Positions 8,975 to 41,289 of a stretch of DNA of 41,289 nucleotides are shown here, in pieces; position 1 is the first letter of the stretch; every line of letters starts with the position of its first letter. The stretch is from Chromatiaceae bacterium (GTDB taxonomy: Bacteria > Pseudomonadota > Gammaproteobacteria > Chromatiales > Chromatiaceae): positions 1 through 41,289 of the forward strand of contig JANQFI010000224.1 of the NCBI GenBank assembly GCA_028277905.1, given 5' to 3'. The notes beneath the pieces were generated by a model. That model made no database searches. It was not told where the DNA came from and saw only the letters and a list, made by a program, of their open reading frames with translations. The translations under genes were made by a program, and so were the position numbers.

Positions 8975-9340
8975 TCAGGGCACGAAGCGCCCGGCGTCGT
9001 CATCTGTCGATCCTTCGCCAGCATAGGGTCCACCGCCGGTGTCCAGATCCAGCCGCTCCAGCCTTAGCCCCAGCAGCACGACGCGGCCATTGTGGCGCTC
9101 GACACCGGCCGTGCTGTACTCGAAGGCATAGCTGCGCCTTAACCTCAGCCCCTGTGCCGTCCAGCGCAGCGACAGCGCGCGCAGTGCCACGGCCTGATCC
9201 AGCAACTGCACCCCGGCCTGCTCGCAGGCCCGGCGGGCGTGCGCCAGCGCCAGCTCCCGCGCGCGTAGCGTATTGAGCCATAGCCAGCCGGCGAGCAGCA
9301 CCACCAGCAGGGCGCTCAGGCTGTCCGTGGTGAGGCTCAT
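8975..9340 (-). CDS. DUF3301 domain-containing protein
   Basis: MSLTTDSLSALLVVLLAGWLWLNTLRARELALAHARRACEQAGVQLLDQAVALRALSLRW; real start at 9340, not the 10420 start in the ORF track. Confidence 0.85.
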   Translation of the reverse strand: MSLTTDSLSALLVVLLAGWLWLNTLRARELALAHARRACEQAGVQLLDQAVALRALSLRWTAQGLRLRRSYAFEYSTAGVERHNGRVVLLGLRLERLDLDTGGGPYAGEGSTDDDAGRFVP

Positions 9341-9369
9341 GCGGGCGTGCGGGTGCGACCTGCCCGGGC

Positions 9370-10497
9370 CTAGGCCCGGTCGCCGGACTCGCCGGCGCGC
9401 TCCGCTCGTGGCGCGCCGAGTGGCAGGCTTTCCTCCCGGCCGGCCGCCACGAGGGCGCGGGCCTCCTCGGCTGGCCCCAGCATCACGGCGATGGGGTAGG
9501 TCTGCGCATTGGCACCGAAGACGATCTTCAGCGACATCGTGAGCGGCACCGACAGGAACATCCCTGCCGGCCCCAGCACCCAGCCCCAGAATACCAGGGA
9601 TAGGAACACCACCAGCGTGGACAAGCCCAGCCCCTGGCCCATGATGCGCGGCTCGAGGAAGTTGCCGACGCCGATGTTGACAACCATGAAGCCGAGCATG
9701 GCCAGCACAGCGTCGTCCAGCCCGAGCTGCACCAGCGCCAGCATGACGGCGGGGACCGCCGCGATGATCGAGCCGATGGTGGGGACGAAGTTCAGCAGGA
9801 AGGCCAGCATCCCCCACAAGGCGGCGAAGTCCACGCCCAGGTACTTGAGCCAGGCCCAAAGCACCACGCCGGTGAAGAGGCTGGTGCAGGTCTTGATGAA
9901 CATGTAGCGGTTGATGGTATGCATCACCTCGTTCAGCTGACTCAAGGACGCATCCGGCTGGCGCACGGCCGCGCGCAGCTTGCTCGGCAGGCTGCTGGCC
10001 TCGAACAAGATGAAGATCACCGTCACCAGGATCAGGAAGGCGTTGGTGAGCACGCCCCCCAGGCCCTTGATCAGCTCTCCGGTGATGCCCAGGATCCGCG
10101 CCGGGTCTACCAAGGAGTTGAAGGCTTGCCGCGACACGTGCAGACCCATGGTGTCCAGCCAGAGGACGAGCTCGCCGGATAGGGCCTTCAAGCGCATCTG
10201 GTAGTCCGGCAGTTTCGCGGTGAAGGCGTTGAGCGAGCCGGTGAACAGGGCGACGATGCCGCCGCCGGCCCCCATGAGAATCGCCACCACCAGCAGCATC
10301 GCCGCCCAGGTTGGCAGCCCGCGGTTGCGTAGGAACTGCACGAGCGGCGCCATCACGACGGCGATGAACACCGCCAGCAGAAAGGGCGTGACCAGGTTCG
10401 AGGCCGCCTTCAGCCCCCACACCACTACCACGAAGGCACCGGCCACCAGCAGGAAGCGCGCCGCCGGCGTGAAGCCGATCTGGTGCAGCTCGTGCAT
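9370..10497 (-). CDS. AI-2E family transporter (PerM-like)
   Basis: Multi-TM protein with PTIGSIIAAVPAVMLALVQLG and GNFLEPRIMGQGLGLSTLVVFLSLVFWGWVLGPAGMFLSVPLTM. Confidence 0.93.
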   Translation of the reverse strand: MHELHQIGFTPAARFLLVAGAFVVVVWGLKAASNLVTPFLLAVFIAVVMAPLVQFLRNRGLPTWAAMLLVVAILMGAGGGIVALFTGSLNAFTAKLPDYQMRLKALSGELVLWLDTMGLHVSRQAFNSLVDPARILGITGELIKGLGGVLTNAFLILVTVIFILFEASSLPSKLRAAVRQPDASLSQLNEVMHTINRYMFIKTCTSLFTGVVLWAWLKYLGVDFAALWGMLAFLLNFVPTIGSIIAAVPAVMLALVQLGLDDAVLAMLGFMVVNIGVGNFLEPRIMGQGLGLSTLVVFLSLVFWGWVLGPAGMFLSVPLTMSLKIVFGANAQTYPIAVMLGPAEEARALVAAGREESLPLGAPRAERAGESGDRA

Positions 10498-11115: not shown

Positions 11116-12366
11116 GTGCCCGATACCAAGGACGCCCCCCAACAGACCGCCACATCTCCGGAGCCGGCGCAGACCGTCGCGGTGGGCGACGCCGAGGCCT
11201 ACCTGCTCGGTACCGCCCATGTCTCCCGCGCCAGCGTAACCCAGGTGCGGGCGCTGCTCGCCCCAGGCGACGATGGGACCGCGTCCTTCGACGCCGTCGC
11301 GGTCGAGCTGTGCGCGAGCCGCTTCGAGTCCTTGTCGGATCCCGACCGGCTGAACCGCATGGATCTGTTTGCCGTGATACGCCAGCAGCGCGTCTACGTG
11401 GTGGCGGCAAGCCTGGCCCTCGCCGCCTACCAGCAGCGGCTCGCGGACCAGTTCGGCATCGAGCCCGGCGCCGAGCAGCGCGCGGCCGTTCAGCTCGCCC
11501 ATGCGCGCGGGCTGCCGGTGCTCTTGGTGGACCGCGACATCGGCGTGACGCTGCGCCGCGCCGCCGCCAACCTCGGCTGGTGGAAGCGGCTCAACCTCTT
11601 CGCCGGGCTGCTGGCGGGCATGCTGTCCCGCGACGAGGTGAGCGAAGAGGAGATCGAGCGACTGAAGCAGGGCGACGTGCTGGAGACCACCTTCGCCGAG
11701 TTTGCCCAGGACCGCCGTGACCTCTTCGACCCCCTCATCACCGAGCGCGACAGATACATGGCCGCGCGGCTGCGCCAAGAGATCGCCAGGGGCGGCCACC
11801 GCCGCGTGCTGGCGGTGCTCGGCGCCGGCCACATCGCCGGTGTCGCCGGCGCTCTACGCGACCCCGCCACGCCCGACACCGACCCCGCCGCGACCATCGC
11901 TGTCCTGGACCGCGTGCCGCCACCGTCGCGGCTATGGCGGGCGCTGCCCTGGGTCCTGGTGGTCGTCGTCCTCGGGCTCTTTGGCTACGGCTTCACCCGC
12001 AGCCCAGAGATGGGCTGGAATCTGGTTGGGGATTGGGTGCTCATCAACGGCGGCCTGTCGGCGCTTGGCGCGGCCATCGCCGCGGCCCATCCACTGACGG
12101 TGCTGGTTGCCTTCTGTGCCGCGCCGCTGACCTCGCTCAACCCCAGCATCGGTGCCGGCATGGTGGCTGGCGCCGCCGAGCTGGTGCTGCGCCGGCCCAG
12201 CGTCGGCGACTTCGGCAGCCTGCGCGACGACATCACCAGGGTACGCGGCTGGTGGCGGAACCGTGTCTCCCACATCCTGGTCGTGTCCATCCTCGCTAGC
12301 CTCGGCTCTGCCGCCGGCACCTATATTGCCGGTTTTCGCATCGTCGGGCGGTTGGTGACTGGCTAG
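11116..12366 (+). CDS. TraB/GumN family protein with C-terminal TM region
   Basis: YLLGTAHVSRASV, AVELCASRF, ERDRYMAARL, VLAVLGAGHIAGV, C-terminal TMs. GTG at 11116 follows a TATCAT box; in-frame ATG at 11008 is the alternative. Confidence 0.85.
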   Translation: MPDTKDAPQQTATSPEPAQTVAVGDAEAYLLGTAHVSRASVTQVRALLAPGDDGTASFDAVAVELCASRFESLSDPDRLNRMDLFAVIRQQRVYVVAASLALAAYQQRLADQFGIEPGAEQRAAVQLAHARGLPVLLVDRDIGVTLRRAAANLGWWKRLNLFAGLLAGMLSRDEVSEEEIERLKQGDVLETTFAEFAQDRRDLFDPLITERDRYMAARLRQEIARGGHRRVLAVLGAGHIAGVAGALRDPATPDTDPAATIAVLDRVPPPSRLWRALPWVLVVVVLGLFGYGFTRSPEMGWNLVGDWVLINGGLSALGAAIAAAHPLTVLVAFCAAPLTSLNPSIGAGMVAGAAELVLRRPSVGDFGSLRDDITRVRGWWRNRVSHILVVSILASLGSAAGTYIAGFRIVGRLVTG

Positions 12367-12369
12367 GGC

Positions 12370-12564
12370 CTGGTGCAGCAGTGCGAATGTCCCGAGACCG
12401 TCTCAGGTCGTTGTCGTTGTCGTGCTCGTGGTCGTTGTCGTTGTCGTTGTCGTGATCGCGGTCTCGACCGTGCGCATATTCGATCACGATTACGATTACG
12501 ATTACGATAGCGATCGCGACAACGAGGGGATCCCTGTCTCGGCACTTCCGCAGCAAAGCACTAG
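12370..12564. repeat. Family B hairpin element, copy 1 (hexamer-rich arms)
   Basis: CTGGTGCAGCAGTGCGAATGTCCCGAGACCGTCTCAGG end and ...GGGATCCC..GTCTCGG..CCGCAGCAAAGCACTAG end, matching copies 2 and 3 in inverse orientation; interior GTCGTT/GATTAC hexamers. Confidence 0.85.
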
Positions 12565-13324: not shown

Positions 13325-13490
13325 CTTAAGGCGATTTCTGTCAACAAACAGACCGCCTGGCTTGTCTTTTCGCCCGCCTGCTGCGTCGCGGCAGCGGGCA
13401 CAGAGCTCGACGATGCGCCCGCTGCCGCGCCTTGAAGGCGCGCGAAAATCCTACGCCATTCGGTCTGTTTGCTTCCGGCAATCGCCTAAG
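13325..13490. repeat. Family A long-hairpin element (MITE-like), full copy
   Basis: CTTAAGGCGATT-(9 nt)-AAACAGACCG at the left pairs with CGGTCTGTTT-(9 nt)-AATCGCCTAAG at the right; inner arms TTTTCGCCCGCC...CGCGGCAGCGGGC also pair. Confidence 0.88.
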
Positions 13491-25866: not shown

Positions 25867-26025
25867 CTAGTGCTTTGCTGTGGGAGCTCCGAGACCGGGA
25901 TCCCCTCGTTGTCGTTGTCGTAATCGCAATCGTAGTCGACTATCCGCACGGTCGAGACCGCGATCACGACTACGACCCCGACCATGACCTGAGACGGTCT
26001 CGGGACATTCGCACTGCTGCATTAG
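25867..26025. repeat. Family B hairpin element, copy 2
   Basis: CTAGTGCTTTGCTGTGGGAGCTCCGAGACCGGGATCCCCTCGTTGTCGTTGTCG...GAGACGGTCTCGGGACATTCGCACTGCTGCATTAG. Confidence 0.88.
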
Positions 26026-26167
26026 TGCTTTGCTGCGGGAGCTCCGAGACCGGGATCCCCTCGTTGTCGTTGTCGTAATCGAATATCCGCACGGTGAGAC
26101 TGCGATCACGACAACGACCACGATCCCGACCTGAGACGGTCTCGGGACATGCGCACTGCTGCACTAG
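26022..26167. repeat. Family B hairpin element, copy 3 (tandem with copy 2)
   Basis: TTAGTGCTTTGCTGCGGGAGCTCCGAGACCGGGATCCCC...GAGACGGTCTCGGGACATGCGCACTGCTGCACTAG; shares the TTAG boundary with copy 2. Confidence 0.88.
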
Positions 26168-26943
26168 ACCCCCGACGCATACCGTTGCCACAGCAAGTGC
26201 GCCGACACCGCCAGCGACGCCAGCACCAGCGCCGGGCGCACCAGCCGGGCGCCGTGGCTCAGCACCAGGTGGGCGCCGATCCAGCCGCCGATGAATTGCC
26301 CGCCGGCCATGGCCAGCGCCAGCGACCAGACCACCTGCCCGCCGGCGATGAACAACAGCAGCGCGGCGAGATTGCTGGTGAAGTTCAAGAGCTTGGTATG
26401 GGCCGTCGCGCGCCGCAGGTTGTAACCCAAGAGCGCCACGAAGCCGATGGCGAAGAAGGTGCCTGTGCCAGGGCCAAAGAAGCCATCGTAGAAGCCGACA
26501 CCGGCGCCAACCGTGAGCGCGAAGGCGCCGTCGCCGACGCGCCGCCGCGAGCCCACGTCCGCTACTCGCGGCGAGAACAGAAAGTACAGCGCGAAGGCCA
26601 TGAGCAGCACCGGCACCAGGCCGGCCAGCAGGTCGCCCGCCAGCACCTGCACCGCCGATGCGCCGACGGCCGAGCCGAGAAAGGTGCAAGCGACGGAGAG
26701 CCGTGCACCACGCAGGTCGATGGCCCCGGCGCGCAGGAAGCGCACCGTCGCGGCAAAGGAGCCGAATATCGCCTGGGCCTTGTTGGTGGCCAGCGCCTGC
26801 ACCGGCGGCAGTCCGGCCCAGAGCAGTGCCGGCACCGAGATGAGTCCGCCGCCGCCGGCCATGGCATCGATGCAGCCGGCGACGAGTGCGACGCCGAACA
26901 ACAACAGGGCGAGCTCCGGTAGCTCCATGATGACTGGTTCCAT
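26164..26943 (-). CDS. Sulfite exporter TauE/SafE (TSUP) family protein
   Basis: LVAGCIDAMAGGGGLISVPALLWAGLPPVQALATNKAQAIFGSFAATVRFLRAG. Confidence 0.93.
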   Translation of the reverse strand: MEPVIMELPELALLLFGVALVAGCIDAMAGGGGLISVPALLWAGLPPVQALATNKAQAIFGSFAATVRFLRAGAIDLRGARLSVACTFLGSAVGASAVQVLAGDLLAGLVPVLLMAFALYFLFSPRVADVGSRRRVGDGAFALTVGAGVGFYDGFFGPGTGTFFAIGFVALLGYNLRRATAHTKLLNFTSNLAALLLFIAGGQVVWSLALAMAGGQFIGGWIGAHLVLSHGARLVRPALVLASLAVSAHLLWQRYASGV

Positions 26944-27661
26944 GACGACGGCAGAGTCGAGCAATCGGGCAGCGCGGGATCTGGCGGCGCGGCCAACCGA
27001 CGGCCGCCCGGATTCTGCTGCCCATTATGGCCCGAGCTATCCACTGGTGATCTTCGACTTCGATGGCACCTTGGCCGACAGCTTCCCGTGGCTTGCCGCC
27101 GTGCTGAACCAGGTTGCGGCGCGCTGGCGCTTCCGGCCCGTCGCGGCGGGCGAGGAAGAGCACCTGCGCGGCATGCGTGCCCGCGAGATCATGGCAGAGC
27201 TGCGGGTGCCCGGCTGGAAGGCGCCGCTGGTGGCGGCGGATCTGCGTCGGCGCATGGGCGCCGAGATCCAGCATATCCAGCGCTTCGACGGCGTCGACCG
27301 CGTGCTCGCGCGGCTCCATGGTGTTGGTGTCGCCCTCGGGCTCGCCACCTCCAATAGCGCGGGCAACGTTCGCCGAGTGCTCGGCGCCGGTAACCTCTGC
27401 CTGATCCGTTACCTGGAGACCGGGGCAGCCATCCACGGCAAGGCCGCACGCCTCAAGCGGCTCCTGCGGCGTGCGGGCATGTCGGCCTCGCAGGCACTGT
27501 ACATCGGCGACGAGATCCGCGACATCGAGGCGGCCCGCGCCGCGGGCATCGCCGCCGGCTGTGTCACCTGGGGCTACAACCGCCCGGAGGTCCTCCGTGC
27601 CGCGCGTCCGGACCTGGTGCTCGAGCGCGTGGATGAGATCGCCGCGCACCTGGCCGGCTGA
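26942..27661 (+). CDS. HAD-superfamily hydrolase (phosphoglycolate phosphatase-like)
   Basis: LVIFDFDGTLADSFPWL, ATSNSAGNV, KAARLKRLL, ALYIGDEIRDIEAARAAGIAAGCVTWGYN. Confidence 0.93.
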   Translation: MTTAESSNRAARDLAARPTDGRPDSAAHYGPSYPLVIFDFDGTLADSFPWLAAVLNQVAARWRFRPVAAGEEEHLRGMRAREIMAELRVPGWKAPLVAADLRRRMGAEIQHIQRFDGVDRVLARLHGVGVALGLATSNSAGNVRRVLGAGNLCLIRYLETGAAIHGKAARLKRLLRRAGMSASQALYIGDEIRDIEAARAAGIAAGCVTWGYNRPEVLRAARPDLVLERVDEIAAHLAG

Positions 27662-27863
27662 TAGGCTCGGATGCCACCGCCACTCCAGGAGCGCGGCGAT
27701 TTCGAGACCAGTCGCGGGTGGCTCCTCATGGGTCTTCGGCGTCGCCCTGGAGGACAGCCAGTGCCCGGTTCGAGAGCTTGCGCAGGGGTCGCAGCTGCCG
27801 ACGCGGGGCGCCGCGGGCCGGCTGCTATACTGGCCGTGTCCCGGGCATCACACGGGAGCGGAC

Positions 27864-28331
27864 ATGACCCTGGCGCAGGAAGACATCCAGTTCATCAAAG
27901 ACCATCTCGGCGAGTGGCTGGCGGAACAATCCCTTGGCAAGCCGCTGGCCGTCTATGAGGTCGAGCTGCGCGAGCGCATGGTGCGGGTGGAAGAGGAGCT
28001 GACGCATCAGCGCGCGCTGATGCGGGAAGGCTTCCAGCGCATGGACGAGCGCTTCGAAGCGGCCGAGCAGCGCCAACAAGAGCTGCGGCAAGACATGCTG
28101 GCGCGGTTCGAGCAGGTCGACAAGCGGTTCGAGCAGGTCGACAAGCGGTTCGAGGAGTCGCGCCAGGACATGCTGGCGCGGTTCGAGCAGGTCGACAAGC
28201 ATCACGTGGAGTTGCGACAGGATGTCCGCGAGCTGCAGCGGCGCATGGATCGGTTCCTTGTTTGGTCGTTCAGCACCACGGTCGCTGTGGGCGGATTGGT
28301 GGTCACCCTGGTCAAGTTCTGGAATCCGTAA
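27864..28331 (+). CDS. Coiled-coil protein with C-terminal TM helix and RFEQVDK repeats
   Basis: MTLAQEDIQFIKDHLGEWL...RFEQVDKRFEQVDKRFEESRQDMLARFEQVDK...FLVWSFSTTVAVGGLVVTLVKFW; TATACT box upstream. Confidence 0.75.
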   Translation: MTLAQEDIQFIKDHLGEWLAEQSLGKPLAVYEVELRERMVRVEEELTHQRALMREGFQRMDERFEAAEQRQQELRQDMLARFEQVDKRFEQVDKRFEESRQDMLARFEQVDKHHVELRQDVRELQRRMDRFLVWSFSTTVAVGGLVVTLVKFWNP

Positions 28332-40424: not shown

Positions 40425-41168
40425 ATGACCCGAGATCAGCTGCAACCGGCCTATGTGCTGCATCGCCGGGACTACGGTGACACCAGTTTGCTGCTGGAGG
40501 TCTTCACCGCCGCCGGGGGTCGGCTGCCGCTGGTGGGCAAGGGCGCGCGACGAGCGCGGCGCCCCGGCAGCAGCCAGGCGGCGCTGCTGCAGCCCTTCGT
40601 GCCGCTGCTCATCGCTTGGCGCGGACGTGGCGAGGTGCGGACCCTGACCCGCGCGGAGCCCGCCGGGCGGCCACTGGTGCTGGCCGGCGATGCCCTCTAT
40701 TGTGGCTTCTATGTCAACGAGCTGCTGCTGCGGCTGCTGGGCCGCCAGGATGCCGATCAGGTGATATTCGCCGCCTATCAGAGCGTGCTCCAGGCGCTCG
40801 TGGACGGCGACCTGGACCGAGGCCTGCGGCGCTTCGAGCTGGCCTTGATCGGGCAGCTTGGCTATCGGCCGCCACTGGACCGGGACGCCGATACCGGCGA
40901 GCCCGTGCGCGCGGATCTGCGCTATGTTTACCACGCGGAGCACGGGCCGCGCTGCGCCGCGACGGCGGAGGCGGCGGTGACCATCAGCGGCGGCACGCTC
41001 TTGGCGCTGCACGCGGGCACAGCGCTCGCGCCGGTGCAGGCGCGCGAGGCGCGCGACCTGATGCGCCGGCTGTTGGCGCCCCACCTGGGCGGGCGCCCGC
41101 TCCGCAGCCGGGCGCTATTCACCGCCCGCCGCCGGGCGGAGGTCGCGCACGGGGAGGACAGCGCCTAA
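40425..41168 (+). CDS. recO: DNA repair protein RecO
   Basis: QPAYVLHRRDYGDTSLLLEVFTAAGGRLPLVGKGARR...LGYRPPLDRD; era-recO order. Confidence 0.93.
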   Translation: MTRDQLQPAYVLHRRDYGDTSLLLEVFTAAGGRLPLVGKGARRARRPGSSQAALLQPFVPLLIAWRGRGEVRTLTRAEPAGRPLVLAGDALYCGFYVNELLLRLLGRQDADQVIFAAYQSVLQALVDGDLDRGLRRFELALIGQLGYRPPLDRDADTGEPVRADLRYVYHAEHGPRCAATAEAAVTISGGTLLALHAGTALAPVQAREARDLMRRLLAPHLGGRPLRSRALFTARRRAEVAHGEDSA

Positions 41169-41289
41169 GGCGATTTCTGTCAACAAACATACCGCCTGGC
41201 TTGTCTTCTCGCCCGCCTTCTTTGTCGCGGCAACGCGCGCATAGAACGACTATGCACGCGCTGCCGCTTCGCGAAGGCGGACGAGAATC
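41164..41289. repeat. Family A long-hairpin element, second copy, truncated by window end
   Basis: CCTAAGGCGATTTCTGTCAACAAACATACCGCCTGGCTTGTCTTCTCGCCCGCCT closely matches the copy at 13325; right arm begins CTATGCACGCGCTGCCGC. Confidence 0.88.

Follow-up and report, generated by a model that had tools for sequence, protein, structure and literature searches.

The systems closest to the element described here are the IS5-derived MITEs and the PHIS superfamily (PIF/Harbinger, NuwaII), ERIC, the Correia elements, the REP/REPIN elements and the MITEs of Candidatus Thiomargarita nelsonii. The ends of IS5-type insertion sequences begin with GG and end with CC, and TNA is used by groups of the IS5 family, IS1031 among them. 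The Correia elements of Neisseria duplicate TA, and the REP/REPIN elements, which depend on a Y1 RAYT, make no target duplication. In the PHIS superfamily, which is related to IS5, the group NuwaII has the target C/TNA/G (PMC4482050). ERIC is a small intergenic palindromic MITE whose copy number differs widely between relatives, from 30 copies in E. coli K-12 up to 711 copies in Photorhabdus, and the Correia elements are short intergenic hairpin MITEs with more than 100 copies (PMC10969869). The Thiomargarita MITEs are palindromic, come from a sulfur gammaproteobacterium and have no identified parent IS; its hupL MITE has a 10-bp direct repeat and its dsrA-intron MITE has TATA ends (PMC4853749).

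The element that we describe, from a Chromatiaceae bacterium, is likewise short, palindromic and mostly intergenic, and with the REP/REPIN elements it shares a hairpin, a non-autonomous character and a high copy number. With the IS5-derived MITEs it has in common the 3-bp TNA duplication within C/TNA/G, as in NuwaII (PMC4482050), but no IS5-type transposase with its ends was found in the genomes sampled. Its ends also begin with GG and end with CC. It differs from ERIC in sequence and ends, having a 3-bp TNA duplication and 26-bp ends of its own (the two are set apart by description, not by alignment), from the Correia elements in its ends and its duplication, and from the Thiomargarita MITEs in the features just listed. 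A TA duplication of the Correia/IS630 type was not seen; the duplication is 3 bp long, and the N between the T and the A matches from left to right. The first-pass annotation recognised no named family, and we likewise found no published name in the open full-text literature that was searched. The family appears to be new and unnamed; it is ordinary in kind, and what distinguishes it is its copy number, its self-regenerating target, its conserved hairpin and its missing partner.

The window, that is, the whole 41,289-nucleotide stretch analyzed, is one contig of a 5.12-Mb, 711-contig Chromatiaceae MAG, a genome of the purple sulfur bacterium type that is 86% complete. Table 1 lists the features of the two copies that it contains. 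The hairpin sequence reported in the first-pass annotation is there, although the interval given for it (13325-13490) was too wide, because it takes in the two flanking TAA direct repeats and one or two bases beyond them; the exact unit is 157 bp. That annotation also described bipartite terminal repeats around a 9-nt internal loop. The repeats hold up, with 21 of 26 positions matching, whereas the loop is better described as the central part, with few matches, of a single imperfect repeat of 26 bp. In the window copy, four of nine positions match in this central part. Both arms strongly conserve its bases (2.3% divergence). The outer 16 bp of the left repeat are conserved across genera. As had been noted, no ORF fills the element; several reading frames across it happen to be open, but none is a gene, and 157 bp leave no room for a transposase gene.

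Table 1. Coordinates of the element, its parts and its second copy in the window.
Feature	Position	Strand	Basis or remark
Complete 157-bp MITE, GGCGATT...AATCGCC	13330..13486	+	About 550 left ends in genome
Left target-site duplication TAA, target T/TAA/G	13327..13329	+	3-bp TNA rule, 76 own and 30 G177 copies
Right target-site duplication TAA	13487..13489	+	3-bp TNA rule
Left terminal inverted repeat GGCGATTTCTGTCAACAAACAGACCG	13330..13355	+	21/26 match to right end
Right terminal inverted repeat GGCGATTGCCGGAAGCAAACAGACCG, read on - strand	13461..13486	-	Match to left end
Inner hairpin stem, 5' arm CGCGGCAGCGGGC	13387..13399	+	Folding; genera differ in stem sequence, pairing kept
Inner hairpin stem, 3' arm GCCCGCTGCCGCG	13417..13429	+	Folding; pairing kept across genera
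Second copy, cut by contig end after 121 of 157 bp	41169..41289	+	Sequence match
TAA left of second copy, also stop codon of ORF 40425-41168	41166..41168	+	Sequence

Other repeats also occur in the window. One family, at 12366-12564 and 25867-26171, consists of copies 59-84 nt long, both inverted and direct, that are 83-98% alike; it is rich in TCGTTGTCGTTGTCG and ends near CACTGCTGCACTAG. At 28103-28222, GCGGTTCGAGCAGGTCGACAA direct repeats with a 21-bp spacing overlap ORF 27471-28331.

The first-pass annotation proposed to look for further genomic copies, target-site duplications and occupied/empty sites, and all three were found. The count of left ends in the MAG is 544-551, depending on the pattern and the mismatches allowed, and that of a reversed control pattern is 0; the resulting figure of about 550 beyond the two copies in the window is approximate, as a copy split between contigs may be counted twice and identical copies may collapse. 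Sixty copies of the main family have a mean identity of 95.8% to their own consensus. A 54-bp derivative elsewhere in the sampled loci (L310, 2031-2085) consists of almost nothing but the two ends.

Among the 76 copies of this genome with TNA on both sides, the two triplets are identical in 51, compared with 27.8 expected, and none of 20,000 permutations gave a value as high. When flank offsets were compared, the left -2 and right +2 positions displayed an excess of identity (50 vs 29); this position stands out because the T and the A are nearly fixed, so that N is the informative base. In the relative G177, 29 of the 30 full copies have a perfect duplication (14.0 expected). The insertion targets are YTNAR, chiefly C/TNA/G and mostly CTAAG or CTTAG, with the central TNA duplicated. 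One third of the copies of the window's genome with TNA on both sides have no matching duplication, and these may be recombinants between copies or have mutated flanks.

Empty sites were sought by joining the flanks of ten G177 insertion sites and looking for the joined sequences across the genus. Four of the ten have an uninterrupted, gap-free or near gap-free counterpart in the sister genome G199, with identities of 98, 92, 88 and 90%. Each of these has a single TNA-type triplet where G177 has triplet, element and triplet. Two of these G199 triplets are one base off their G177 counterparts (TAG for TAA and TCA for TTA), as is expected because the genomes have diverged. The 3-bp target duplications and the matching empty sites in the sister genome demonstrate that the element is mobile. 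In a separate observation, the sequence to the left of one G177 element (L305, about 9277-9402) matches some 20 other places in G177 and represents a separate repeat family.

Since the unit starts with G, ends with C and enters C/TNA/G, CTNAG is remade at both borders, which makes it a self-REGENERATING target and permits insertion beside existing copies. This regeneration explains why copies are able to pile up end to end; at element-element junctions, which occur in both relative orientations, exactly 3 bp (TAA, TTA or TGA) lie between the copies in 10 of 11 cases. It also explains why an insertion at a stop codon can leave the protein unchanged.

The copies strongly avoid the inside of genes. 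By gene calls from a simple codon-usage script, the 93 copies of the window's genome with a TNA flank comprise 64 intergenic, 17 coincident with a stop codon, five one base off a stop and seven intragenic, whereas the 1536 background CTNAG sites divide into 423, 103, three and 1007 in the same classes. A special preference for stop codons was considered and rejected, because the stop-codon share of the stop-plus-intergenic copies (17 of 81, 21%) equals that of the background sites (103 of 526, 20%).

Relatives of the element are present in 48 of the 196 sampled genomes of the family and in 24 of 62 genera by a left-end search with one mismatch; these are rough figures, as single matches may be due to chance and the search overlooks diverged ends (it scores 0 for G008 and G035, in both of which BLAST finds copies). 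The left-end counts are uneven: there are 551 in the window's MAG, and several congeners have 0. Some species amplified the element separately, with 268 left ends in G028 and 139 in G177. The motif is also found in named records, which are those of Thiohalocapsa sp. ML1, Thiorhodococcus minor, Thiococcus pfennigii and a Chromatiaceae MAG. The plasmid and phage collections gave just short low-scoring matches and no relative. The G177 copies have a mean identity of 99.2% to their own consensus, and six of 30 are identical, whereas the identity between this consensus and the window copy is only 77%; these values indicate a separate and recent amplification in G177. Two other observations concern distribution. 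Five loci of G033 (L149, L155, L159, L160 and L162) have related TNAGGCGATTTCCGG-type ends with different interiors and possibly belong to a wider superfamily. A 2.7-kb contig binned as Rhodospirillales (L202) has a PL23b-type element at both ends and is probably misbinned Chromatiaceae DNA.

Taken with its inverted repeats, its duplications, its hundreds of copies and its empty sites, the element is almost certainly a MITE, which was one half of the first-pass suggestion of a "MITE or REP/BIME-like" hairpin. The best overall explanation, to which we give a probability of about 0.85, is a mobile MITE that would be moved by an IS5/PHIS-like transposase acting in trans and whose hairpin matters at the level of DNA. 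That the transposase is IS5/PHIS-like is somewhat favored; because no transposase bounded by element ends was found, this link is drawn from the target sequence.

The transposase search covered several families. No transposase bounded by element ends was found at 26 PF01609 loci in the window's MAG or at 12 PF01609 loci in G177, at the PF13340 and PF13359 loci in 11 genomes, at any PF01797 locus in the window's MAG, or in 795 kb of G177. A search for a GG...CC inverted repeat with a TNA duplication at 600-2200 bp apart gave nothing convincing in 2.18 Mb of sequence. Unpaired ends in G001 and G025 have no transposase with them and are degenerate or truncated MITEs. Two longer units do have MITE ends. 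One is 857 bp long (L270, 1501-2357), with TAA/TAA flanks and a slightly degenerate right end, and encloses a Uma2 (PF05685) gene; the other is 912 bp long (L266, 1501-2412), with TTA/TTA flanks, and encloses a DUF805 (PF05656) gene. As each is a single case, they were set aside as autonomous versions and are treated as cargo-bearing or disrupted copies, for which the matching triplets are suggestive.

These results bear on the alternative that survives best, namely that a stand-alone and perhaps host-kept transposase without element ends moves the copies and that no autonomous copy exists anywhere. It would agree with the finding that no copy of any length carries a transposase in the genomes sampled, including the near-identical copies of G177, of which about 15% was read. 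However, the search covered three DDE Pfam families, the sequence read was a minor part of each genome, autonomous copies break short-read assemblies, and parentless MITEs have been reported elsewhere, for example in Thiomargarita (PMC4853749). We consider this alternative unlikely. Its more specific form is a Chromatiaceae MITE family that lacks any autonomous member, owes its amplification to an unlinked transposase producing IS5-like TNA duplications, and needs its hairpin as DNA for movement; this form is doubtful.

The first-pass statement that the element folds into a hairpin is borne out by folding energies far below those of dinucleotide shuffles (z of -6.9 as DNA and -8.5 as RNA, with none of 200 shuffles as good). 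The pairing is also maintained in evolution. A set of 23 diverse members shows changes on both sides in 27 of the 56 pairs, and the covariation is 0.273 compared with 0.064-0.087 in slid registers; the register is a consensus of single-sequence folds, which favors the true register on percent paired. RNAalifold on a MAFFT alignment was set aside, as the arms were mis-registered.

Such paired changes, which preserve the hairpin across genera, and the avoidance of gene interiors could also come from a structured RNA, a terminator or an mRNA-stability element kept between genes for its RNA function. The cross-genus mismatch cells, with 77 A-C and 42 G-T, point weakly in the same direction, as a minus-strand RNA, in which A-C would be G-U, would also give this excess, but the cells count relatedness. 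Within the window's genome, however, the mismatch events are about equal (24 G-T vs 27 A-C), and therefore the pairing is probably not kept by way of G-U on one strand. Furthermore, no Rfam family reaches its gathering score, left-end counts range from 0 to about 550 among congeners, the genes next to the copies are convergent, codirectional and divergent alike, and target-duplicating insertion into exact empty sites is transposition. An RNA element is thus very unlikely, and the pairing is likely to be a feature of the DNA, not of an RNA gene.

Movement of a REP/REPIN-type element by a RAYT (a Y1 HUH transposase) via single-stranded hairpins would suit the conserved imperfect hairpin, the mostly intergenic position, the hundreds of copies and the absence of an encoded gene, but it is highly improbable, as Y1 transposition makes no target duplication, the TNA duplications are clear here, and no RAYT was found in the 86% complete MAG, where the single Y1_Tnp match, at a contig end, reads like an IS200-type TnpA; the REP/BIME half of the first-pass suggestion is accordingly dropped.

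Returning to the MITE moved in trans, we envisage the following steps. A DDE transposase of the IS5/PHIS kind would bind each end at its outer 16 bp, which are conserved, and join the element to a 3-bp staggered cut. As each insertion adds a net 160 bp and thereby causes a frameshift, few copies would persist in genes. The arms may be kept complementary at the DNA level either by hairpin or cruciform correction during replication or because transposition requires the structure.

With about 550 left ends, compared with the 711 ERICs reported in Photorhabdus, this element ranks with the more heavily amplified MITEs of bacteria. It also coincides with most of the sampled contig breaks in its own MAG, as 54 of the 90 true contig ends sampled lie in or within 60 bp of a copy, a share that may be inflated because the contigs were partly picked for carrying elements. 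Because the covariation of its arms is strand-symmetric, the element can serve to test whether selection or replication-linked correction maintains the hairpins of bacterial MITEs. If the doubtful combination of an unlinked transposase and a required DNA hairpin were true, it would mirror the REPIN-RAYT partnership with a DDE enzyme. Finally, the recent spread of the element in some Chromatiaceae makes these bacteria a natural system in which to study how it is moved and by what.
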